From: a virus | DNA: 22,728 nt | Reading direction: 5' to 3' (one strand) | IMG/VR virus record: IMGVR_UViG_3300033151_000119 | Coordinates: 1-22,728 of that record | In this document: positions 2,680 through 22,728 of the stretch, piece after piece | Layout of the letters: the number at the start of each line of letters is the position of its first letter | Numbering within the stretch: position 1 is the first letter of the stretch | The notes under the pieces: model-generated | The model's input: the letters and a program-made list of their open reading frames with translations, nothing else | Databases searched by the model: none | What the model was told of the DNA's origin: nothing | Made by a program: the position numbers and the translations under genes

Positions 2680-4358
2680 TGTCCTGAGCCTTGGTTAATG
2701 GGTGTGACGTTGTCCGGTGTTGACAGGCCCCCGGCATCCATGGCTTGGGCTCCTTCACCCATAGCAGTCATGGCCTTGCCTTCCTGCTCAGCAATGGCAG
2801 CGGTCTGGGCTTCCTTCTGTGCAGCTTTGCGTTCTTCACCCTTGCGGATCACTTCGTCTTTGCTGTTCATCAGCTTGGCTGGTACACCAATCAGGAGGCC
2901 CACCTCGCGTGCTGCTGCAGTAGCATCAGGCACGTCAATAACATCTGGGTAGATCTCAGCCAGCTCAGCCACACCAGCCAACCACTGCTCGATGGAACGT
3001 GCCTGCTCTGACTTCTGGGATCTGGGGATGGGTCCGGTGTACTCGATGTCCATGTCCCCTCCCATCTCTGCCAGTACAGCAGGCATCTCGGGTAACTGCC
3101 CTGCACGCAGCAGGATGTTGAAGGTGCGCTGTATCAATGGATCAAGCAGGTCGGATTGAATGCGGCCCACTGTGGGTCCTAGTGTTTTCTGCATCAGCTG
3201 CCAGCGTCTCTCGACCTCGGTGGCAGTCATGGCTGGCGACTCCTTGAGTTCCAGCTGATCACCAAAGAATGCTTCAACAATGGAGCGTTGCAGGTCCATG
3301 ATGCGGTCCTTGGATACATCGAACCGGGCTCCCGTGATAATGGGCTTCAGCCCGTCGATATCTGACACAATGGTGAGGCCTCCTGCCTCCTGATCTATGT
3401 CTGACATTAAGCCATTCTCTGTGGTCATCATGGCCGGGTCAATGGCCTTCTCAACGGAACGCTGGTCCATGTACACCATCTCATTCAGTGTCAGGATATC
3501 AGCCAGACCAATGTGTGCAGGACCGTGGCCCCACATGCTGCCTGAGGCCTTAGCAAAGCGGGTGATGAAGGCTGGCATCTCATAATAGCCCCCCTCCTCG
3601 CCCAGCTGTGTCTTAGTGCGTCTCAGCACGTACTTGAACCCGAAGGGACGGGCTAGGGGTGCGAGCATACCACTGGTGTCTGCATTCTTGCGGTTGTCTC
3701 GCTTGTAAATGGCGAAGATGACCGTCTCTTTGCTCTGGTCCATGCTGGCGTTGTCAGCCCGGTTGGCAATGTCTGAGGGCACATGTTCCTTGCCAAACTT
3801 GTCCACCATCTGCAGTGGGGTGTATTCCAGTCGGCGGTAGATCCGCAGCACGGTACCGTCTGCCCCCTCTTCGAAGAATATCTCCTCCTGTGGTACCGCT
3901 TGGAAGTTGATGCCGTCCCAGTCTGTCTCGTTCTCGACCTCCTCGATCAGTGTGGTGGTGGCGAAGCTGCACATGTCGGTGTACCCCTCTGCCATCTCGA
4001 GGTTGAAGTTGGACTCCTGCAGAGCCCGGTGTGTTCGCTTGCCTGACTCTTCCAACCATTCAGTGGCTTCCTGATCGTCCTTCAGGTCCTCATCACGGAA
4101 GGCCAGATTGAACCACATCGTGTTGGGGCTGGTGAGGTTGGAGTGCAGGTTGGCTGCCAGTCTGCGGCAGGCCTTCACAGCTGTGTCGTCGTAGATGTCA
4201 CGCTTGCGCCACTCCACCTCCTGCTCGTTCTTGTTGGTCTTGAAGAACTCACCCCGGAAGGGTACAACGAACTGCTCGATGACCTGCCACGTTTGTTCCA
4301 CGACCTTGCGGCCCCCTTCAAGCACGGAGACCCGCGCTACCACATCTGCTGATTTCAT
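2676..4358 (-). CDS. Portal (head-to-tail connector) protein
   Basis: The 560-aa product matches the podovirus head-tail connector family in length and sequence character. N-terminal: TWQVIEQFVVPFRGEFF, then KRDIYDDTAVKACRRLAANLHSNLTSP, the conserved block preceding the wing. Middle: GPAHIGLADILTLNEMVYMDQRSVEKAIDP. C-terminal: ELKESPAMTATEVERRWQLMQKTLGPTVGRIQSDLLDPLIQR, the typical stem/crown helix region. It forms the dodecameric ring at the packaging vertex, docking the terminase and later the tail. Its ATG overlaps the terminase stop by one base (TAATG), the classic TerL-portal coupling. The C-terminal tail from about 500 is Ala/Glu/Lys-rich and probably helical or disordered. Confidence 0.9.
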   Translation of the reverse strand: MKSADVVARVSVLEGGRKVVEQTWQVIEQFVVPFRGEFFKTNKNEQEVEWRKRDIYDDTAVKACRRLAANLHSNLTSPNTMWFNLAFRDEDLKDDQEATEWLEESGKRTHRALQESNFNLEMAEGYTDMCSFATTTLIEEVENETDWDGINFQAVPQEEIFFEEGADGTVLRIYRRLEYTPLQMVDKFGKEHVPSDIANRADNASMDQSKETVIFAIYKRDNRKNADTSGMLAPLARPFGFKYVLRRTKTQLGEEGGYYEMPAFITRFAKASGSMWGHGPAHIGLADILTLNEMVYMDQRSVEKAIDPAMMTTENGLMSDIDQEAGGLTIVSDIDGLKPIITGARFDVSKDRIMDLQRSIVEAFFGDQLELKESPAMTATEVERRWQLMQKTLGPTVGRIQSDLLDPLIQRTFNILLRAGQLPEMPAVLAEMGGDMDIEYTGPIPRSQKSEQARSIEQWLAGVAELAEIYPDVIDVPDATAAAREVGLLIGVPAKLMNSKDEVIRKGEERKAAQKEAQTAAIAEQEGKAMTAMGEGAQAMDAGGLSTPDNVTPINQGSGQ

Positions 4359-5800
4359 TAGCTGTTCCTGCCGTATTGACGGCGCTTGACTGTGTATCGC
4401 TTGGAGCCTGTGTGACGTTTGAGCACCTGCCTTTCAACGTGTACGTTGGCATAGATGACCGCATCTCCCCTGTCTGTGCTGCGGCCTAAGCGTTTGATTA
4501 TGTGCTTCTTGCCTTCCACTTGCAACACGTTGCCTTCCTTGATGTCATACGTGGCAGCGCACAGGTCGGCCTTCAGCTTGTTGTCTGGTGGTAGCTGGAT
4601 GTTATTACCTGAGGCCGGGTCCAGCACCTCCCTGAACTGCCAGTACCACATGGCTCGCTTGTTCTTGTACTTGAAGGTGCCTGTGCGGTCCCTGACGCCT
4701 CCGCAACCCTCTGACCCAGTCATGGGCTCGCATTGCATCTCATTCTCCCTGAGCTTGTCCACGACGCTGGTGCCGACCCCAATAGCATCCACCTGCACTG
4801 GGCATCCGTTGCGCCTAATAGCAGCGATACGACCCACCAAGGTCGGACCATCAGGCACCTCATGCCCGGGGATCACGGTGAGCGGTGCGAACCAGTTGTC
4901 ATGACGTGGAGCCAATATCGACTCATCACGTCCACCCCGGGACACATCGACACCCATGGCATCCATTGCGCCCTTCTCCCCGTCAGGGGTCCATCGATCC
5001 ATTGCAGCTTGGACCCAAGCAGTGGGTATGACCTGCCATGCATCATCCTCTGCACCAGCGAGGAAGTCACCGTACAGCATCTGTGAGCGTAGTGGCTCGG
5101 GTAGTGATTGCAGTGTGGTCATATAGCCTGTCCCTGTAAGGTATGGATTGTCTGTGATCCGTGATGGAATGAACGTGCGTGACATGGGTGTGATGAGCTC
5201 ACCATTGTAGTCGAAAGGCTCACCACTCTCCACCTCGAGGTCCTCACCCGCTATCGTTGCGAACCAGCGTAGCTCCCCGGGCTCTGCGCGGTTGTGATGT
5301 TGTGGGTCCAGCCATGGTGCAAAGAAGTCGATCAGCCACATGCCCTCTGCTGAGGTGGGAGGGTTGGAGCACATCAACGTCCTGCAGCGTTGCCCCGGGA
5401 TGGTAGTACGCACCCAGCCCATCAGGAATCGCACCTGATCCTCCTTCAGGTTGGCAGCCTCGTCCAGCACCAGCAGGTCACGTGGGTTGCCTTGGAATTT
5501 GTTCTCATCACCCGGGTTGGGCACACCACCGAACTGCATCTGTCTGGCCTTGTCACCTGTGTGGAACCTCCAGATCTTATTCTGCCCATTGAACCCATCC
5601 CTGCCCCCAAGGATCTCAGCGACCCGGTCATACACCCCAAGCAGCTGCGTCGCCTCCTGTCTAACGAATAGCGTGCGCCTGTGCTCCGTCATAGCCAGAC
5701 CGATGGCCAGATCTGACTTGCCCCCTCCTGCTGCTCCACCATACAGTGTGATGTCTGCCTTGCAGTCTGCTGCTTCCGTCTGTGGACCTGACAGTGGCAT
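4358..5800 (-). CDS. terL: Terminase large subunit (TerL), from the first in-frame ATG
   Basis: TerL is the DNA-packaging motor and headful/cos nuclease. Walker A is GGAAGGGKS (residues 21-29 from this ATG), Walker B is LLVLDEA (109-115), and a coupling-type motif CSNPPTS follows near 144-150. The nuclease domain starts with MGVDVSRGGRDESI (about 282-295), with later acidic positions in VQVDAIGVGTS and RGDAVIYA near 455. The 480 aa shown begin only about 20 residues before Walker A, shorter than usual. The reading frame stays open upstream to a stretch coding terminase-like sequence without a normal start codon (next entry). The ATG at 5800 has no convincing ribosome-binding site, so the true protein is probably about 36 residues longer. 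The stop overlaps the portal start. Confidence 0.92.
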   Translation of the reverse strand: MPLSGPQTEAADCKADITLYGGAAGGGKSDLAIGLAMTEHRRTLFVRQEATQLLGVYDRVAEILGGRDGFNGQNKIWRFHTGDKARQMQFGGVPNPGDENKFQGNPRDLLVLDEAANLKEDQVRFLMGWVRTTIPGQRCRTLMCSNPPTSAEGMWLIDFFAPWLDPQHHNRAEPGELRWFATIAGEDLEVESGEPFDYNGELITPMSRTFIPSRITDNPYLTGTGYMTTLQSLPEPLRSQMLYGDFLAGAEDDAWQVIPTAWVQAAMDRWTPDGEKGAMDAMGVDVSRGGRDESILAPRHDNWFAPLTVIPGHEVPDGPTLVGRIAAIRRNGCPVQVDAIGVGTSVVDKLRENEMQCEPMTGSEGCGGVRDRTGTFKYKNKRAMWYWQFREVLDPASGNNIQLPPDNKLKADLCAATYDIKEGNVLQVEGKKHIIKRLGRSTDRGDAVIYANVHVERQVLKRHTGSKRYTVKRRQYGRNS

Positions 5801-5920
5801 CCAGATCGGCTGACTATCACCAAGGTATTTGCCAAGGGCTGAGAGCTCCTCAGGGCTGCACTGCTCAATGTAGCGGTCTATGTCTGCATCAGTGGTTAAA
5901 GAAACGATGGTGGCTCTCCT
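5801..5920 (-). other. Probable N-terminal extension of TerL with ATC start and strong SD
   Basis: In the TerL frame, codons from 5908 down to 5801 are open and encode 36 residues including DIDRYIEQCSPEELSALGKY and DSQPIW, which run naturally into MPLSGPQTEA. No ATG, GTG, TTG or CTG occurs in frame. AGGAGAG (5920-5914) lies five bases before an in-frame ATC (5908-5906), ideal spacing for initiation there. The stretch overlaps the last four codons of the upstream gene. Initiation at ATC, a frameshift from the upstream gene, or a sequence error from ATG would each explain it. Confidence 0.55.
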
Positions 5921-6363
5921 ATGGGCTCTGGTGCCCCAGTATCATCTTCTTCTTGGTCAACTGCAAACCTGATCCGCTTCTTAAGCTCCACAAGGTCCAT
6001 TGTGGGGGCTAACTCATCACCAGCCAGTAGGTGACCGTTCTGCCAGTCCAGAAAGTCCTTGGCGGAGATTGCAGGAGCATTGGCCACCAGCTTGTCCACC
6101 TTCTTGTATTGGCTGTCCATCAGCAGCTTCCGTGCTGCCAGATGCGTCGTGTCAATCGGTGGCGCTGGTTCGGTGGTCATCTTACCATCGACAATCACTT
6201 CGACAGGCTTCAGCAGCTCCTGCATCTCATCTTCAATCTTCTCAATGATCTGCATCGTTTTCGTGAAGCTAATCTTATCCCGGAAGCTCTGTTGATTGAT
6301 CTCACGGTTGATCTTCCCACGCTTCATCATGTCCTTCGACTGTAGCAATAATTTCTTTCCCAT
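5896..6363 (-). CDS. Protein in the small-terminase (TerS) position
   Basis: The 155-aa product lies immediately upstream of TerL and overlaps its probable extended start. The N-terminal third is strongly basic (MGKKLLLQSKDMMKRGKINR), the centre is helical with alternating charge (IEKIEDEMQELL), and the C-terminus is acidic (QEEDDTGAPEPIGEPP). That polarity and size would suit a small terminase, whose ring binds DNA with one end and TerL with the other, but I do not recognise a family signature. The start at 6363 has GAGGT about 8 nt upstream. The repeat array at 6468-6669 is just ahead of the gene and could be its recognition site. Function is by position only. Confidence 0.55.
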   Translation of the reverse strand: MGKKLLLQSKDMMKRGKINREINQQSFRDKISFTKTMQIIEKIEDEMQELLKPVEVIVDGKMTTEPAPPIDTTHLAARKLLMDSQYKKVDKLVANAPAISAKDFLDWQNGHLLAGDELAPTMDLVELKKRIRFAVDQEEDDTGAPEPIGEPPSFL

Positions 6364-6467
6364 TTCTGTTACCTCATAACCTGTTGACCGTCAGCTCTTT
6401 GCCAGCGGCGTGTATTCGAACATCTCACCAGTGATACTCACCATTATTGGCCCATTTTACACTGTTC

Positions 6468-6669
6468 CAGTGGTGCAGTGGTGTAGCAGTGGTGTAGCAG
6501 TGGTGTAGCATTCATCACCCAACTACCACGATGGGAGCGAAAAGAGCTCCATCTAGTGGTGCAGTCCTTCCCTCTCTTAGGGGGTCTGCACCACTGCACC
6601 ACTACAATTCACCCTATATCGCTGGGAGAATGTCACGAGAATCACCCCAGTGGTGTAGCAGTGGTGTAG
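6468..6669. repeat. Array of 11-bp iterons (CAGTGGTGTAG) in a 311-bp non-coding gap
   Basis: Copies of CAGTGGTG(T/C)AG occur at 6468-6475 (8-bp core only), 6476-6486, 6487-6497 and 6498-6508, then TAGTGGTGCAG at 6554-6564. Two reverse-oriented copies lie at 6586-6606 and two direct copies at 6648-6658 and 6659-6669. Tandem copies are spaced at 11 bp, about one helical turn. A further dyad GGAGC/GCTCC lies at 6534-6550. The gap (6364-6674) lies between the helicase-primase and TerS-position genes and contains no credible gene. It is a candidate replication origin or terminase recognition site. Confidence 0.85.
6555..6595. repeat. 10-bp inverted repeat inside the iteron region
   Basis: AGTGGTGCAG (6555-6564) and CTGCACCACT (6586-6595) are perfect inverted copies separated by 21 bp. 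The centre can itself pair (CCCT with AGGG), giving an extended cruciform or hairpin. The arms are iteron sequence, so opposed iterons create the dyad. Confidence 0.7.
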
Positions 6670-6674
6670 GCTCA

Positions 6675-8795
6675 TCACGTGAAATCCGGTGGAGTATCCA
6701 GCACTTTGAAGGCCAGCTCCTTCTCACCCTGCAGGTAGCCACTCTTAATCACCGGGACCATCGAGGCTTTGATGAATTGTGTGCGGGTTCCGCGTACCTC
6801 AGCCTCGGGTAAGTCGGCCAACACAAAGACACCAATTTCCATGCCGTGCTCAATGATCGTCGTGATCTTCCGCTCACCCTGCTTGACACCATCAACGAAC
6901 ACCTCCAGCTCACTGCGAGCCTGACGCTTCGACAGGTACATCCCTTCACGTTCACACTCCTTCAGCTTTTCATGAACCTGAGTCATCAGCTTCAACTTCA
7001 GACTGGCTGTCTGTTCGACACGATCACGCTCTACAGTCTCACTGTCGGGCGTTCTCTCCAAGGTGAAGGTGAAGTGATCACGGATCAGCCAGAAGGGCTG
7101 CACGGGCCTCTTATGGCCTGACAGCTTAGCAACAGTCAAATAGCTCACCTGACCCTCGTCAATGGCTAAGGAGGGCACACTGGAGGGCAGGGTGAGACCA
7201 TTGGCATGGGCTGGGTCATAGGTATGCAACACCCAAGCCGTGCGAGAGTTATCAGCGAAGGCAGCACCACCACGACCAGCATGCGCTGAGGTGTCCTTGT
7301 TTTTCGCCACCTCCTTGGATGTGTGATGAATGTACCCAGCTGCGCCACCGAGCTCACGAGACATCCGACTGGCCACCTTCATCAGGGCAGCCTCGCCATC
7401 ATTGACGAACCTCTCCCCGGGGCCAAAGAATGCAGCAGGGTCCATACAGGACATGCGAAGGCCCACACCCCGGTACAGCTCAATGATGTCATCAACATGG
7501 TGCGTGATGGTCAGGTTGCCACTGCGATCAGCCTCAACGAACCGGGCCAGCTCACCAGACACGTCATGGATGTAGAGGTTGTTGGACACGATGGTCAGCT
7601 GCTCACGGGTCAGAGACATGGCCTCGCAGATCTTGAACAGACGGTACAGCATGGTGTCCATGTCATCCTCTGAGCTGATGAACAGGCAAGGCCCGGGGAT
7701 GGGGATCGAATTACCCCACAACGGGATGCCCAGCACGATGTGCACCATGACCTTAAGTGTGAGGGTTGTCTTGGCCACGCCTCCGGTCCCGATGATGCCG
7801 AAGGGACCCCTTTGCAGCATGCCAGTAATAATCTCCTCAGGAGGGTCCTTGCAGACGTTGAGCGAGTGCAGGCCAATAGGGTTGCGATCACTGAACAACT
7901 TGGGAGGTGCGACAGCTATAGGCCCCTGAGGGATGCTGGACTGCCAGCCCGGGAGAACACTGAAACCTGTGGGAGCACTGGACTCTGCAAAATAGGTGCC
8001 ATCGCTCTTCTTCAGGTAGTCATCCAGATCATAGAAGCTGATGTCATGCGTGTGCAAGCAGGTGCACTGGGGCGTGGTGTAACCATTGAACCCGGCGGCA
8101 AAATAGACAGCTCCTTGCAGGTCATGGGCATCACCATGCTCGTGTGACAGGGGGCAGATGTCCAGCTCATACTTACCACTGCCTTTATCCTTGGCACCCA
8201 GATCAGATCGGAGCACGGCCTCAGTAATACGGTCAACAGGAGCCACAATGTCACCTCTGATCTTCTCCTGACGCAGGACCTTCAGGTCGGTGATCTTCTG
8301 GTGGTACCAGTCACGCCCCTCCTGACAGGGCTGGATGACCTTGGGAGTCTCAGGAACGTGGTGGCCTGTGAGAGCCACGAACCGTTTAGCATGGTAGAGC
8401 TCATAGCCCATGGTGGTCAGGGACTGCCCCTCAGCCTGACAGATGATGTGAACCCCGGTGCCAGACTGAGAGTACTCAGCCCAGCTCGGTACGTTGGCGA
8501 AGGCCTCCAACATCTCCGGGCTGTACTGACCATTGCTGATGACATTGTCAAAGTCCAGAAAGGCATAAGGATCAGCATCAGAGAACACGAAGCCCAGACC
8601 AGAATAGCCACCCCGGTTGTAAGATTCACGAGCCTCATCATAGGTGCCCCAACTATCAGGTTTGACAGTGCTGGCCTTGTAGCCTTTAGGGCTGTACGGG
8701 ATCTTTGTGGGCTTGGTCTGTCCCTCCCGGGTCTCCAGTTTCCACACCACCCAGCTTGGTCTGGCCATCAAATCTGCAGGGTAATGTAGGCTCAT
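6675..8795 (-). CDS. Primase-polymerase / RepA-like replicative helicase
   Basis: The 706-aa protein combines priming and unwinding. The N-terminus carries an archaeo-eukaryotic-type prim-pol domain: GLGFVFSDAD, the metal-binding AFLDFDN (D81 and D83) and SQSGTGVH (109-116). A probable zinc site follows (C214, H218, H220, then C244, C246, H248). The C-terminus is a RecA-fold helicase of the RepA/AAA_25 group: Walker A GTGGVAKTT (336-344), Walker B region CLFISSEDD (370-378), and a later IHHTSKE block. The start at 8795 is chosen over the ATG 26 codons upstream because it overlaps the previous stop as ATGA and follows AGGGGG. It is the only replication gene seen on the leftward arm, next to the iteron array, which makes the two natural partners for initiation. 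Confidence 0.88.
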   Translation of the reverse strand: MSLHYPADLMARPSWVVWKLETREGQTKPTKIPYSPKGYKASTVKPDSWGTYDEARESYNRGGYSGLGFVFSDADPYAFLDFDNVISNGQYSPEMLEAFANVPSWAEYSQSGTGVHIICQAEGQSLTTMGYELYHAKRFVALTGHHVPETPKVIQPCQEGRDWYHQKITDLKVLRQEKIRGDIVAPVDRITEAVLRSDLGAKDKGSGKYELDICPLSHEHGDAHDLQGAVYFAAGFNGYTTPQCTCLHTHDISFYDLDDYLKKSDGTYFAESSAPTGFSVLPGWQSSIPQGPIAVAPPKLFSDRNPIGLHSLNVCKDPPEEIITGMLQRGPFGIIGTGGVAKTTLTLKVMVHIVLGIPLWGNSIPIPGPCLFISSEDDMDTMLYRLFKICEAMSLTREQLTIVSNNLYIHDVSGELARFVEADRSGNLTITHHVDDIIELYRGVGLRMSCMDPAAFFGPGERFVNDGEAALMKVASRMSRELGGAAGYIHHTSKEVAKNKDTSAHAGRGGAAFADNSRTAWVLHTYDPAHANGLTLPSSVPSLAIDEGQVSYLTVAKLSGHKRPVQPFWLIRDHFTFTLERTPDSETVERDRVEQTASLKLKLMTQVHEKLKECEREGMYLSKRQARSELEVFVDGVKQGERKITTIIEHGMEIGVFVLADLPEAEVRGTRTQFIKASMVPVIKSGYLQGEKELAFKVLDTPPDFT

Positions 8796-9430
8796 ATTGA
8801 GCCCCCTTTGCTCATGTTCTGCAGAGGTGTGAGGTACTGCAGCTGGGCGAAGGCGGCATGGTAGATGTACCACGAGGTCCCCAGTATAGCGTCAGAGAAC
8901 ACATAGTCGATATTAACCAGACCACGGTCCTCCGGGATGAGTACATCCTCTTCCCCGAGGCCCTCACTGGCCAGCCAGTCAGAGAACAGCAGGTGGAAAG
9001 GGTACACATGGTCCACGTGATACCAGTCTTTATCTGGGGGGTTCAATCTCCTGAAGTTCAGGATCTGGCCTCTTATGGTATTCCGGGCAGCCTGCACCAC
9101 GTGGATGTGATGCGCCTGATCTGGCCTCGGGCTGCGGACACACAGGGTCCACGCGAAGTCATCCTCTGCTCCGTCAACGTAGACTATTTTAATGCCACGG
9201 TGCTGGTAGTTGGACTGGGGGGTCAGGTAGGTGTACATGGCTGATATAGGTTTGCTCAACTTGGCGTCACCATCAGGGTGCCTGTGTCTTATCAGCTCAG
9301 TGAAGAAGTGCCTGTCCTCATTGCAGAGAGGGAAATCCCCTCCACAGTTGGCTATCAGCTGTTGGATGTACTCCGTCAGCGCTTTCTTGGTGGGGAAGTT
9401 GAACTTCCCGAATATAATTGGGTTACGCAT
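8792..9430 (-). CDS. DUF3223 (DCL-like) protein with HNH-like motif
   Basis: The 212-aa protein starts with the DUF3223/DCL pattern: FNFPTKKALTEYIQQLI, NEDRHFFTELIRHRHPDGDAK, and later IVYVDGAEDDFAWTLCVRSP. The C-terminal half contains WYHVDHVYPFHLLFSDWL (136-153); the VDH and downstream helix resemble the core of HNH-like nucleases, as seen in other phage members of this family. DNA binding or nicking is plausible but unproven. The start at 9430 has GAAAGGA 9 nt upstream. The gene is coupled to the helicase-primase by an ATGA overlap, hinting at a role in replication or DNA processing. Confidence 0.6.
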   Translation of the reverse strand: MRNPIIFGKFNFPTKKALTEYIQQLIANCGGDFPLCNEDRHFFTELIRHRHPDGDAKLSKPISAMYTYLTPQSNYQHRGIKIVYVDGAEDDFAWTLCVRSPRPDQAHHIHVVQAARNTIRGQILNFRRLNPPDKDWYHVDHVYPFHLLFSDWLASEGLGEEDVLIPEDRGLVNIDYVFSDAILGTSWYIYHAAFAQLQYLTPLQNMSKGGSI

Positions 9431-9771: not shown

Positions 9772-10047
9772 CTATAAACCCGGGATGTGTGGACCATTCC
9801 TGTGCTCAGGCAAGGGTGTGGGTGCCGTCTTACGGGTATCCAGCACATACTTCAGGATCTTAAGCAGGGCAGTGTAGGATGGTTCCGTGCTGCCCCCATT
9901 ATAGAGCGCACGTAGGCCTGATCTACTGAGACCAGTGCCCTGTGCCATCTCATTACTGCTGATGTGACGGCGACGGATCTCTCCAAGGCAGAATGCCCAT
10001 GGGTCTTCCAGAGCAACATGCAGCTCTACATTTGTTAGTTTTCTCAT
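9772..10047 (-). CDS. Cro/CI-like helix-turn-helix regulator
   Basis: The 91-aa product has a compact HTH region at about residues 29-65: HISSNEMAQGTGLSRSGLRA, then LYNGGSTEPSYTALLKILKYVL. This is the layout of Cro/CI-type (HTH_3) repressors, with the recognition helix in LSRSGLRALY. The C-terminus (TRKTAPTPLPEHRNG) is short and Pro-rich, with no peptidase or multimerisation domain, so it is more Cro-like than CI-like. I start it at 10047 (GGAA 8 nt upstream); the frame is open to 10149 but that would run through the promoter. It faces away from the rightward early operon across a region with back-to-back promoters, so it likely controls both. Confidence 0.75.
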   Translation of the reverse strand: MRKLTNVELHVALEDPWAFCLGEIRRRHISSNEMAQGTGLSRSGLRALYNGGSTEPSYTALLKILKYVLDTRKTAPTPLPEHRNGPHIPGL

Positions 10048-10077
10048 CGTAATATTCCAGTTGTTGTAAAGGTGGGG

Positions 10078-10106
10078 AATGTACCACGCAATTAATTTCA
10101 CTTCAA
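10078..10106 (-). promoter_or_regulatory. Leftward promoter of the divergent control region
   Basis: On the minus strand TTGAAG (10106-10101) is followed after 17 bp by TACATT (10083-10078). Each box matches consensus at four of six positions. Its -35 lies three bases from the -35 of the rightward promoter, so the two would compete. It would transcribe the HTH regulator and possibly the rest of the leftward arm. Confidence 0.45.
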
Positions 10107-10109
10107 GCC

Positions 10110-10139
10110 TTGACAGCAAAGAATCACTGATGGTAAGAT
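10110..10139 (+). promoter_or_regulatory. Rightward early promoter, copy 1 of 3
   Basis: TTGACA (10110-10115), 18-bp spacer, TAAGAT (10134-10139), followed by GCGCTCTCACTT. Copies at 12330 and 13614 share the boxes, the spacer length, an ATCAC at the same place in the spacer and the sequence after the -10. The ATCAC forms half of a loose dyad with the start of the -10, a candidate operator. Confidence 0.75.
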
Positions 10140-10171
10140 GCGCTCTCACTTAAACAACGAAGGTAAACAAC

Positions 10172-17475: not shown

Positions 17476-18342
17476 ATGTCAATATCATTACTAATTCAAG
17501 GCGTCATCTCGTACCCGCATGTGTTCGCAGCACGGGCCTATCAAGCGGGTGATGAGCCACGCTTCAGCTGTAGCATTATTCCTACAGATCCGAACTTCGA
17601 TTGGAACGCGGTGCAGACTGCGATCAATGAAGCCTCGCTTGCAACCCATGGGTCGAACCCTCCTGCCGGGCTGGCGTCTCCACTGAGCCAAGTTAAGGAT
17701 GGTCCTTACGCTGGCATGTGGCAGATCACAGCTACTGCGAAGGAAGCCCAGCCACCAGAGATCGTGGACGGGAACATCAAACCTCTGGCAAACAATGGTC
17801 AGCTGTTCGCTGGTTGCGTGTGCAACTTCGACATCAAAGCCTTTGCTTATCCGAAGGGTGTCAGCACCGGGTTGAATAAGATCCAGCTGGTAGACAACGG
17901 ACCGCACCTACCTCGACTAGATGGTGGCAAGTCTGCAGAGGAAGTGTTCAGTGTTGTGCCGATGACGGTAGCCTCACCACTTGGTGGACCCACTGGTCAG
18001 CCAGCTCAGGTGCAGCAGCAGCCACAACAGGCCCAGCCACAACAGGCCCAGCCTATGCAGCAGCAGCCACAACAGGCCCAGCCTATGCAACAGCCTATGC
18101 AGCAGCCAGTGCAGCAACAGCCTATGCAGCAGCCAGTGCAGCAGCAGCCACAACAGGCCCAGCCTATGCAACCGCCTATGCAGCAGCAGCCACAACAGGC
18201 CCAGCCTATGCAACAGCCTATGCAGCAGCCAGTGCAGCAGCCAGTGCAGCAACAGCCTATGCAGCAGCCAGTGCAGCAACAGCCTATGCAGCAGGGTCAG
18301 GTTCAGACGGGAGCTCCGGCTCAGATGCCGTGGAACGGTTAA
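17476..18342 (+). CDS. DUF2815 family, presumed ssDNA-binding protein with long Gln/Pro tail
   Basis: Residues 1-170 match DUF2815: SLLIQGVISYPHVFAARAYQ, FSCSIIPTDPNFDWNAVQTA, then GQLFAGCVCNFDIKAFAYP. The family is found next to DUF2800 and DNA polymerase in phage modules and is taken to be the single-stranded DNA-binding protein of those systems. From about residue 178 to 282 the protein is a repeat of QQPMQQ/PQQAQP units ending in APAQMPWNG. This looks like the disordered linker of SSB proteins but without their acidic tip, and makes the protein longer than the usual family size. AGGA lies 6 nt before ATG 17476. The gene overlaps the polymerase start by 13 nt. Confidence 0.78.
   Translation: MSISLLIQGVISYPHVFAARAYQAGDEPRFSCSIIPTDPNFDWNAVQTAINEASLATHGSNPPAGLASPLSQVKDGPYAGMWQITATAKEAQPPEIVDGNIKPLANNGQLFAGCVCNFDIKAFAYPKGVSTGLNKIQLVDNGPHLPRLDGGKSAEEVFSVVPMTVASPLGGPTGQPAQVQQQPQQAQPQQAQPMQQQPQQAQPMQQPMQQPVQQQPMQQPVQQQPQQAQPMQPPMQQQPQQAQPMQQPMQQPVQQPVQQQPMQQPVQQQPMQQGQVQTGAPAQMPWNG
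18012..18296 (+). repeat. Tandem repeat encoding the Gln/Pro-rich tail
   Basis: Mixed 15- to 30-bp units built from CAGCAGCCACAACAGGCCCA, CAGCCTATGCA and CAGCAGCCAGTG repeat through about 285 bp without breaking the reading frame. The unit order is scrambled, as expected after repeated unequal recombination or slippage. Length probably varies between related phages. Confidence 0.85.
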
Positions 18343-20282
18343 AAGTCCACATCGATATAGAGTCGTACTCTGAAGTCGATCTAGCCAAGGAAGGCTTATA
18401 CAAATACGCCTCGCACCCATCGACAAGGATTGAACTCCTGTCATGGGGCCGGGGCACCGGGCCAGTCACTCAATGGGATGTCAACGATGGGGTCCCGGTA
18501 CCTCGTGAGTTCTTCGACATAATGGTGGAGCCAGAGACAGAACTCCATGCCTTCAATGCTACCTTCGAGCGCATCATGCTGGCCAAGGTATGGGGATTCG
18601 TTACACCCCTCGACCGATGGCACTGCACCATGATTCATGCGTGGAGCCTTGCATTCTCTGGGGGCCTTGCTCAGGTCGGAGCCCAGATGCATCTCAACAT
18701 CCAGAAGATGGACGGCGGTAAAAAACTGGTCCTGAAATTCTGTAAGCCAGCACCAGCCAACCACCTTGCTGATCGGTACAACAAACAGAACAGCCCTGAA
18801 CTCTGGGCAGAATATAAAACCTATAACATCATTGACGTGGAGACCGAGCGGGAGATGTCCAACTGGTTATCCGCTTACCCCATTCCATACGAAGAGAGGC
18901 AGGCCTACCTGACTGACCAGAGGATCAACGCCCGGGGCTTACCCATCGACACCGTACTAGTGGATCATGCTGTCCGGATAAACCTCGAAGAGAAGGAAGA
19001 CCTCAAGGTCCGGATGAATGAACTCACAGGCCTGCAGAATGCAAACAGCCGGGATCAGCTGATGCCTTGGCTAACGGTCCGGGGTCTGGACATGCCGAAT
19101 ATGCAGAAGGCCACCGTCGAATCTGCCCTGAAGTTGGAGATCCCAGACGAGGTCCGTCAGGCACTGGTCCTCCGGTCCCAAGTGAATCAAACCAGCACGG
19201 CCAAATTTGCCGCTGTACAGGCCGCAGTGCTGGACCATAGATTGCATGGGGTATTCCAGTTCGCAGGCGCACAGCGTACACAGCGGTGGGCAGGCAGGCT
19301 ATTCCAACCACACAACCTGAAGCGTGGCTATCCGGATGCAGATGTCCGGGCTAATACCCTGATGCATGGTGACCGTGGTCTGATCAAGATGCTCCACGGA
19401 GATGTCATGACTTACCTGTCTAACATCATGCGCACTGTCATCTCTGCAGGTGACGGCAAGACTCTGTCAGTTTGTGACTACGGGTCAATCGAGTCCCGGG
19501 TGCTGGGTTGGCAGTCTGGTTGCGGAAGGATCATTGATCTGTTCGCTACTGGCAAAGATTCATACAGAGACTTTGCCACCGAGGTGTACGGCGTGGACTA
19601 TGACGATGTCACCAAAGAACAACGGGGATTCTGTAAGCCCCCAGTGCTCGGCTGTGGCTACCAATTAGGAGGCAAGGGCTTGGTCACCTACGCTGAAGGC
19701 ATGGGCGTGACGCTCTCAGAGGAGGGGTCACAGCGTCTGGTTGACCTATGGCGAATGCTGCACCCTGAAGTGGTGGCCATGTGGCGCTGGTTACAGGGGG
19801 CCTGCATACATGTGACTGAAACATACGAGGAGGTGTCCGGATACGCTGTCACCATATATAGGGACAGTGAGTTCTTATTCATCAGGCTGCCCAGTGGCAG
19901 GAGCCTCGCGTACCACCAGCCACAGGTCAGCATGAAGACGCCCCCCGGGTGGAAGAAGCGGGTGCGCTCTGTGTCCTATATGGGGCACGATCAGTACACC
20001 CACAAGTGGACCCGGATCTCTACCCATGGCGGAAAGATAACGGAGAACATCGTGCAGGCCATCGCACGGGATCTGCTCCGGGATGCCATGTTCGAGATGG
20101 AAGGTCTGGGCATGGACGTGGTAGGACACGTCCACGATGAGGTCCTTGTAGAGACTGAGTTAAATTACTCAGTGGATACATTGGATACTATGAACCAAGT
20201 TATGTCAGTCACACCCAAGTGGGCACCGGGCCTGCTGCTATCTGCAGAAGGTTTCATAACTAAACGATATAGGAAAGACTAA
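18330..20282 (+). CDS. Family A DNA polymerase with 3'-5' exonuclease domain
   Basis: The 650-aa replicative polymerase has an exonuclease domain with HIDIES (D9, E11), HAFNATFE (73-80) and NIIDVE (165-170). The polymerase domain has RTQRWAGRLFQPHNL (315-329), motif A SVCDYGSIESR (D382), motif B with R431, K435 and the GYQLGG turn (442-447), and motif C GHVHDEVLVE (H601, D602, E603). All catalytic acids appear intact. Translation starts at a GTG (18330) inside the end of the DUF2815 gene, in another frame. A poor ribosome-binding site suggests the polymerase level is set by coupling. The stop overlaps the next ATG by one base. Confidence 0.95.
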   Translation: MERLKVHIDIESYSEVDLAKEGLYKYASHPSTRIELLSWGRGTGPVTQWDVNDGVPVPREFFDIMVEPETELHAFNATFERIMLAKVWGFVTPLDRWHCTMIHAWSLAFSGGLAQVGAQMHLNIQKMDGGKKLVLKFCKPAPANHLADRYNKQNSPELWAEYKTYNIIDVETEREMSNWLSAYPIPYEERQAYLTDQRINARGLPIDTVLVDHAVRINLEEKEDLKVRMNELTGLQNANSRDQLMPWLTVRGLDMPNMQKATVESALKLEIPDEVRQALVLRSQVNQTSTAKFAAVQAAVLDHRLHGVFQFAGAQRTQRWAGRLFQPHNLKRGYPDADVRANTLMHGDRGLIKMLHGDVMTYLSNIMRTVISAGDGKTLSVCDYGSIESRVLGWQSGCGRIIDLFATGKDSYRDFATEVYGVDYDDVTKEQRGFCKPPVLGCGYQLGGKGLVTYAEGMGVTLSEEGSQRLVDLWRMLHPEVVAMWRWLQGACIHVTETYEEVSGYAVTIYRDSEFLFIRLPSGRSLAYHQPQVSMKTPPGWKKRVRSVSYMGHDQYTHKWTRISTHGGKITENIVQAIARDLLRDAMFEMEGLGMDVVGHVHDEVLVETELNYSVDTLDTMNQVMSVTPKWAPGLLLSAEGFITKRYRKD

Positions 20283-22397: not shown

Positions 22398-22506
22398 CCC
22401 CCTTGTCTTTGTCATCCTTGACGGAGTTATGATCACCAGAGATATAGTTCACGGTGCATGCTGCTACTGCAGCCGCACCAGCGAGCAGTGAGAGCACCTT
22501 GATCAC
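22336..22506 (-). CDS. Small lipoprotein (56 aa), convergent with the helicase gene
   Basis: A GTG at 22506 overlaps the stop of the gene to its right (GTGA). The product begins MIKVLSLLAGAAAVAAC, a short basic N-terminus, hydrophobic stretch and lipobox VAAC with Cys at residue 17, so a mature lipoprotein of about 40 residues is expected. The mature part is TVNYISGDHNSVKDDKDKG followed by an acidic patch (DADDDD) and RPERRPVTP. It overlaps the end of the SNF2 gene on the opposite strand. Candidates are an outer-membrane spanin subunit or a superinfection-exclusion lipoprotein; no partner spanin is in view, so neither is assigned. Confidence 0.6.
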   Translation of the reverse strand: MIKVLSLLAGAAAVAACTVNYISGDHNSVKDDKDKGVMIDADDDDRPERRPVTPSE

Positions 22507-22728
22507 TTAGGGACTACCACATCTGCGACGCCATCGCCATCAGCATCGAAGTTAATGCTGTCGGCATCTTCAGTCACCGAGGGGTTCCCGTCCCCGGGGT
22601 TGCCGGATATCACACTGTCTGGCAGCCCGTCGTTATCCATGTCAAAGGCACCACCAGTGACCGGTCCACCACAACCATTGGTAACCCAGAACTCATAGAG
22701 CAGATCATTCAAGTGACCCGGACCCAGC
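22503..22728 (-). CDS. C-terminal end of a protein with calcium-binding-type repeats
   Basis: The frame is open to the window edge, so only the last 74 or so residues are present. The TTG at 22712 is in frame but unlikely to be the real start. The visible part has two DxDxDG-type loops, FDMDNDGLPD and FDADGDGVAD, separated by a Gly/Asp/Asn-rich region (SGNPGDGNPSVTEDADS). Such loops bind calcium in thrombospondin-type-3 and dockerin-like modules and usually occur in extracellular or virion-surface proteins. The stop is coupled to the lipoprotein gene. A virion or lysis/surface role is inferred. Confidence 0.6.
   Translation of the reverse strand, partial: LGPGHLNDLLYEFWVTNGCGGPVTGGAFDMDNDGLPDSVISGNPGDGNPSVTEDADSINFDADGDGVADVVVPK

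Follow-up and report, generated by a model that had tools for sequence, protein, structure and literature searches.

The 311-bp intergenic gap at positions 6364..6674 of the viral record IMGVR_UViG_3300033151_000119 (22,728 bp, analyzed over its whole length and referred to below as the window) is probably a phage replication origin of a "self-origin" type, located immediately 3' of the phage's own primase-helicase gene; from sequence comparison we put the probability of this reading at roughly 0.7. The gap holds a set of nine short repeats (iterons) together with a hairpin, and both the array and the hairpin lie far beyond chance expectation. These elements and their position are read directly from the window, and the same position, with a related design, recurs in other phages. 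By analogy with characterized replicons, we infer that the gap acts as an origin, that the iterons are read by the helicase's own C-terminus, and that the hairpin is the site of melting or priming.

The iteron array and hairpin downstream of the primase-helicase gene

The motif AGTGGTGYAG was found at nine exact sites within the gap, seven on the plus strand (starts at 6469, 6477, 6488, 6499, 6555, 6649, and 6660) and two on the minus strand (6586 and 6594), and no further exact copy was present outside the gap in the whole 22.7-kb record. In 5000 first-order Markov simulations of the gap, the mean number of sites was 0.005 and the maximum was 1. A first-pass annotation of this DNA had described about nine copies of an 11-bp motif, in both orientations and at helical-turn spacing on the same face, in a gap with no gene. 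The occurrence of both orientations and the coordinates of the gap were borne out, since the gap is bounded by the stop of the minus-strand gene at 6675-8873 and the start of the minus-strand gene at 5896-6363 and contains only short open reading frames (ORFs). The count of nine likewise held, for exact copies, although the conserved unit is 10 bp; the helical-turn spacing applies to three neighbouring pairs, which have a start-to-start distance of 11 bp, whereas two pairs overlap at 8 bp (0.76 turn) and the remaining steps are 31–56 bp, so that the same-face arrangement holds only in part.

The iteron repeats proper occupy 6469-6669. Read along the minus strand, which is the coding strand of the helicase, the array begins 6 bp past the stop codon, and the nine iterons extend from +6 to +205 after it. 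The order is a direct pair at +6 and +17 (6649..6669, plus strand, 6–26 bp past the stop), two overlapping iterons in inverted orientation with 8-bp spacing at +72 and +80 (6586..6603, minus strand), the element CCCCCTAAGAGAGGG at +90, one iteron at +111 (6555..6564, plus strand), and a cluster of four direct iterons at +167 to +197 (6469..6508, plus strand) with spacings of 8, 11, and 11 bp.

The iteron at 6555-6564 forms the other arm of a hairpin (6553..6605, minus strand) that was absent from the first-pass annotation, in which the inverted iterons at 6586-6603 and 6555-6564 flank CCCCCTAAGAGAGGG, about +90 after the helicase stop, and thereby bracket a core of CCCCCT...AGAGGG. The predicted DNA fold of these 53 nt has an energy of −15.8 kcal/mol (z −6.1), and none of 200 shuffled sequences was equally stable; the fold of the whole region has a z of −3.6.

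The gene that precedes the array (6675..8873, minus strand) encodes, as judged from its sequence matches, a fused primase-helicase with an N-terminal PrimPol domain, an AAA_25/RepA-like motor of superfamily 4 (SF4), and a C-terminal tail. The N-terminus matches phage primases (PHROG primases, and in the PDB the NrS-1 primase structures 6a9w/6k9a), and the core matches Pfam AAA_25 (E 2.8e-20) and RSF1010 RepA (1g8y, E 2.7e-4), with 7ola as a further PDB match. These matches agree with the helicase-primase named in the first-pass annotation, and the array lies on the 3' (downstream) side of this gene. At 8792-8873 the longest frame of the gene overlaps a DUF3223-like gene, and translation probably begins at the ATG at 8795.

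Iteron arrays 3' of helicase genes in other phages

A search for conserved repeats in related phages had been proposed as a check of the array. Viral loci were picked because their proteins resembled two families of AAA_25 helicases, and not by repeats (the query helicases came from repeat-pattern loci, whereas their fetched relatives did not), in collections that consist of contigs, many of them fragmentary. Family A comprised 46 AAA_25 helicase loci and family B 78 PrimPol-PriCT_2-AAA_25 loci, and each 400-bp segment was scored by its most repeated 8-mer. The segment directly past the helicase stop was strictly the best in 42 of the 46 family A loci. An 8-mer in at least four copies was found directly 3' of the helicase in 91% of family A, compared with 0% upstream and 0.6% elsewhere, and in 42% of family B, compared with 3% upstream and 1.6% elsewhere. 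After dereplication, the values for the 3' side and for other intergenic gaps were 90% vs. 1.5% in family A and 38% vs. 2.5% in family B, and the 3' ends of 39 portal genes carried arrays in 0% of cases. For VapE primase-helicases, a third and unrelated class, 24 loci remained after dereplication, and 88% of them had a 3' array vs. 0.2% of other segments. In dozens of phage lineages, iteron arrays thus immediately follow the gene for the replicative helicase, whether this is of the AAA_25 or of the VapE class, and arrays similar to that of the window are found at this position in unrelated phages.

Most family A arrays have the common core GTGNNGCA with a variable centre, and the window iteron GTGGTGYA belongs to this series. 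Family A helicases with close ATPase cores can be paired with different iteron centres, for example GTGGGGCA in L354 and GTGGAGCA in L358. A CCC..GGG hairpin, usually between inverted iterons, is enriched at the 3' site (16-fold for family A, 3.9-fold for family B), and the window has such a hairpin at this place as well. Among individual phages, one word occurs ten times in Roseobacter CRP-823, the corresponding gap of Rhodoferax P26218 contains an 8-mer six times and a 7-mer nine times, and that of MW202557 has eight copies, although other segments of the MW202557 locus score higher. The VapE 3' arrays (L471-L515) use other words, such as TGGTAACA, TGTCAACA, and GTTGCCGA. Separately, GTGGTGCAGTT arrays with copies in both orientations lie right behind the genes of a protein family that contains a Toprim domain and whose complete members are about 1000 aa long (L127, L145, L149, L156, L180, L274, and L336).

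Proposed replication origin and alternative roles of the gap

By analogy with the systems of SaPI/SCCmec and pRN1, we propose that the helicase-primase attaches to the iterons that follow its own gene, opens the hairpin region, and primes. A C-terminal domain, probably a winged helix, would let several copies of the protein recognize the GTGGTGYA iterons, and these copies would form rings at the hairpin between the inverted iterons; the RepA-like motor would then melt the DNA and expose the hairpin as a single strand, and the fused PrimPol domain would synthesize the first primers for the phage's PolA-type polymerase (18330-20282) and Gp2.5-like SSB (17476-18342).

Several observations weigh against this proposal. 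With 15–21% identity, the helicase of the window stands far from both families, A and B, and the AlphaFold2 model of its C-terminus has low confidence. The covariation between iteron centre and helicase C-terminus gives a weak signal, and no prominent AT-rich melting region was found in the gap. The closest relative, L011 (portal identity 84%), carries a different helicase and shows no clear array in the same gap, and no array was seen in five of the named phages examined that have related helicases (Caulobacter GB2A, Rhizobium RHph_X2_26, Escherichia BUCT618, Mycobacterium Jiraiya, and Vibrio 1.123.O); the 3' rule is therefore not universal. The repeat word alone is also not diagnostic, since GTGGTGYA triplets with 11-bp spacing adjoin tyrosine integrase genes in L096, L129, L332, L333, L334, L276, and L101/L112, where the word may have another use, as an arm-type site of the integrase.

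Scans for exact GTGGTGYA triplets returned mostly Gly-rich coding repeats (period 9 or 12) and these integrase-adjacent triplets, and were taken as leads only. BLAST of the array against phages and plasmids and megablast of the whole window against phages gave zero matches, and only one relative of the helicase (35%) was found in viral contigs. The GC and purine skews turn near 7.1–7.6 kb, possibly as a consequence of gene organisation, and do not enter the argument.

The low-confidence C-terminal model and the weak covariation would also suit an origin whose iterons are bound by a separate RepC-like initiator rather than by the helicase itself, as in RSF1010, where the iteron binder RepC is distinct from RepA and RepB' (PMC4234260). 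We regard this variant as unlikely, though it is the strongest of the alternatives: no RepC-like protein was found among the proteins scanned, which were a part of those encoded by the window, itself a fragment. Moreover, family A helicases, whose match to RSF1010 RepA (1g8y, E 1.8e-21) covers the motor core, bear at the C-terminus an additional domain whose topology, in a high-confidence model, is winged-helix-like.

The first-pass annotation had offered three readings of the array: a replication origin, a packaging (pac) site, or a shared site that couples the two processes. For packaging, the 155-aa protein encoded next to the gap (5896..6363, minus strand) would multimerise on the iterons, and the large terminase subunit TerL (4358..5800, minus strand; PHROG 2, E 5.4e-34) would start headful packaging from there. 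The array does lie directly upstream of this candidate terS and of terL; a small terminase subunit (TerS) is the most frequent annotated neighbour in the related loci, and the helicase-array-TerS order is common there, as in the window. The 155-aa protein, called a probable TerS in the first-pass annotation, fits by position, and L011 has a 35%-identical counterpart in the same place, but no family match in Pfam or PHROG supports the assignment, which makes it a candidate by position only. Against packaging, several family A loci retain the array and hairpin with an SSB gene, not a terminase gene, as the next gene, the helicase is the constant neighbour in families A and B, and the VapE loci obey the same rule. 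Since the arrays and hairpin persist beside SSB while the helicase stays constant, a site used by the helicase, namely an origin, is favoured. The comparisons therefore most likely point to a replication origin, and pac as the main function, which finds no linkage to terminase over other genes, appears quite improbable; the array may have a secondary packaging role.

Slightly less probable still is a role in transcription control, with the gap as an operator or a terminator-like hairpin that separates replication from packaging genes within a single minus-strand operon. The gap does divide two co-directional gene groups, its repeats and hairpin could bind a regulator, and a Cro-like protein is encoded at 9772-10149. 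Nevertheless, our scan found no sigma-70-like promoter and no intrinsic terminator, and arrays that follow helicase genes across phages would be unexpected from regulation alone.

The remainder of the window is that of a podovirus-like phage, with a major head protein, a head-tail connector, and the large terminase, and with a replication block that comprises an exonuclease, the Gp2.5-like SSB, the DNA polymerase, an endonuclease, and the helicase. The densest repeat of the window is the long Gln/Pro/Met-rich tail of the SSB. At the edge of the record, an open-ended minus-strand ORF (22503-22727) encodes Asp/Gly-rich repeats (DMDNDGLPD, DADGDGVAD) that resemble calcium-binding repeats.

Origins are known for only a minority of uncultivated phages, and our searches of the open-access literature turned up no description of 3' iterons linked to AAA_25 helicases of phages. 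If the 3' rule holds, then for many phages that encode an AAA_25 or VapE helicase the sequence would show where the origin lies, and the variable iteron centre would constitute a testable specificity code.

Comparison with known replicons

The alpha protein of satellite phage P4 has a bacterial Toprim-type primase, and its repeats are unlike those of the window in sequence and layout. As in the window, primase and helicase are fused in P4 alpha, whose C-terminal winged helix binds the origin repeats (PMC4234260).

The position of the array is paralleled in Staphylococcus, where the helicases SaPI Rep and SCCmec Cch2 use their C-terminal domain to bind origin iterons located immediately past the gene that encodes them, with two-sided initiation proposed (PMC7581432). 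In the window, short repeats likewise follow the stop codon of a replicative helicase gene, and this position is kept with the helicase in AAA_25 families A and B and in VapE, but not in L011, whose helicase is different. The SaPI and SCCmec helicases belong to another superfamily than the RepA-like SF4 motor of the window, act with a separate primase, and use other iterons, and iteron binding by the helicase, demonstrated there, would be expected in the window by analogy. In the Sulfolobus plasmid pRN1, a stem-loop just 3' of the gene for a PrimPol-helicase with a C-terminal winged helix is required, and a similar stem-loop was noted in phage BIP-1 (BIP-1/BPP-1) (PMC4234260). The combination of PrimPol-helicase and 3' stem-loop is shared with the window; the pRN1 helicase belongs to superfamily 3 (SF3), however, and its origin was reported without iterons, whereas iterons bracket the hairpin of the window. 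If our reading is true, the logic of SaPI and pRN1, with a helicase and its adjacent origin in one cassette, extends to the RepA/SF4 helicase class.

RSF1010 resembles the window in its RepA-type hexameric helicase, which the window matches through 1g8y, and in its oriV, which contains iterons plus stem-loops for priming (PMC4234260). Its RepA, RepB', and RepC are separate proteins, whereas the window has a fused primase and helicase and no RepC among the proteins scanned. We tentatively suggest, as a possibility somewhat short of even odds, that phages of one large class replicate by means of a condensed, RSF1010-like replicon, in which one protein would combine RepB'-like priming, RepA-like unwinding, and RepC-like iteron recognition, the origin (GTGNNGCA iterons around a CCC..GGG hairpin) would travel as a cassette on the 3' end of the gene, and the two central iteron bases would serve as a switchable specificity code.
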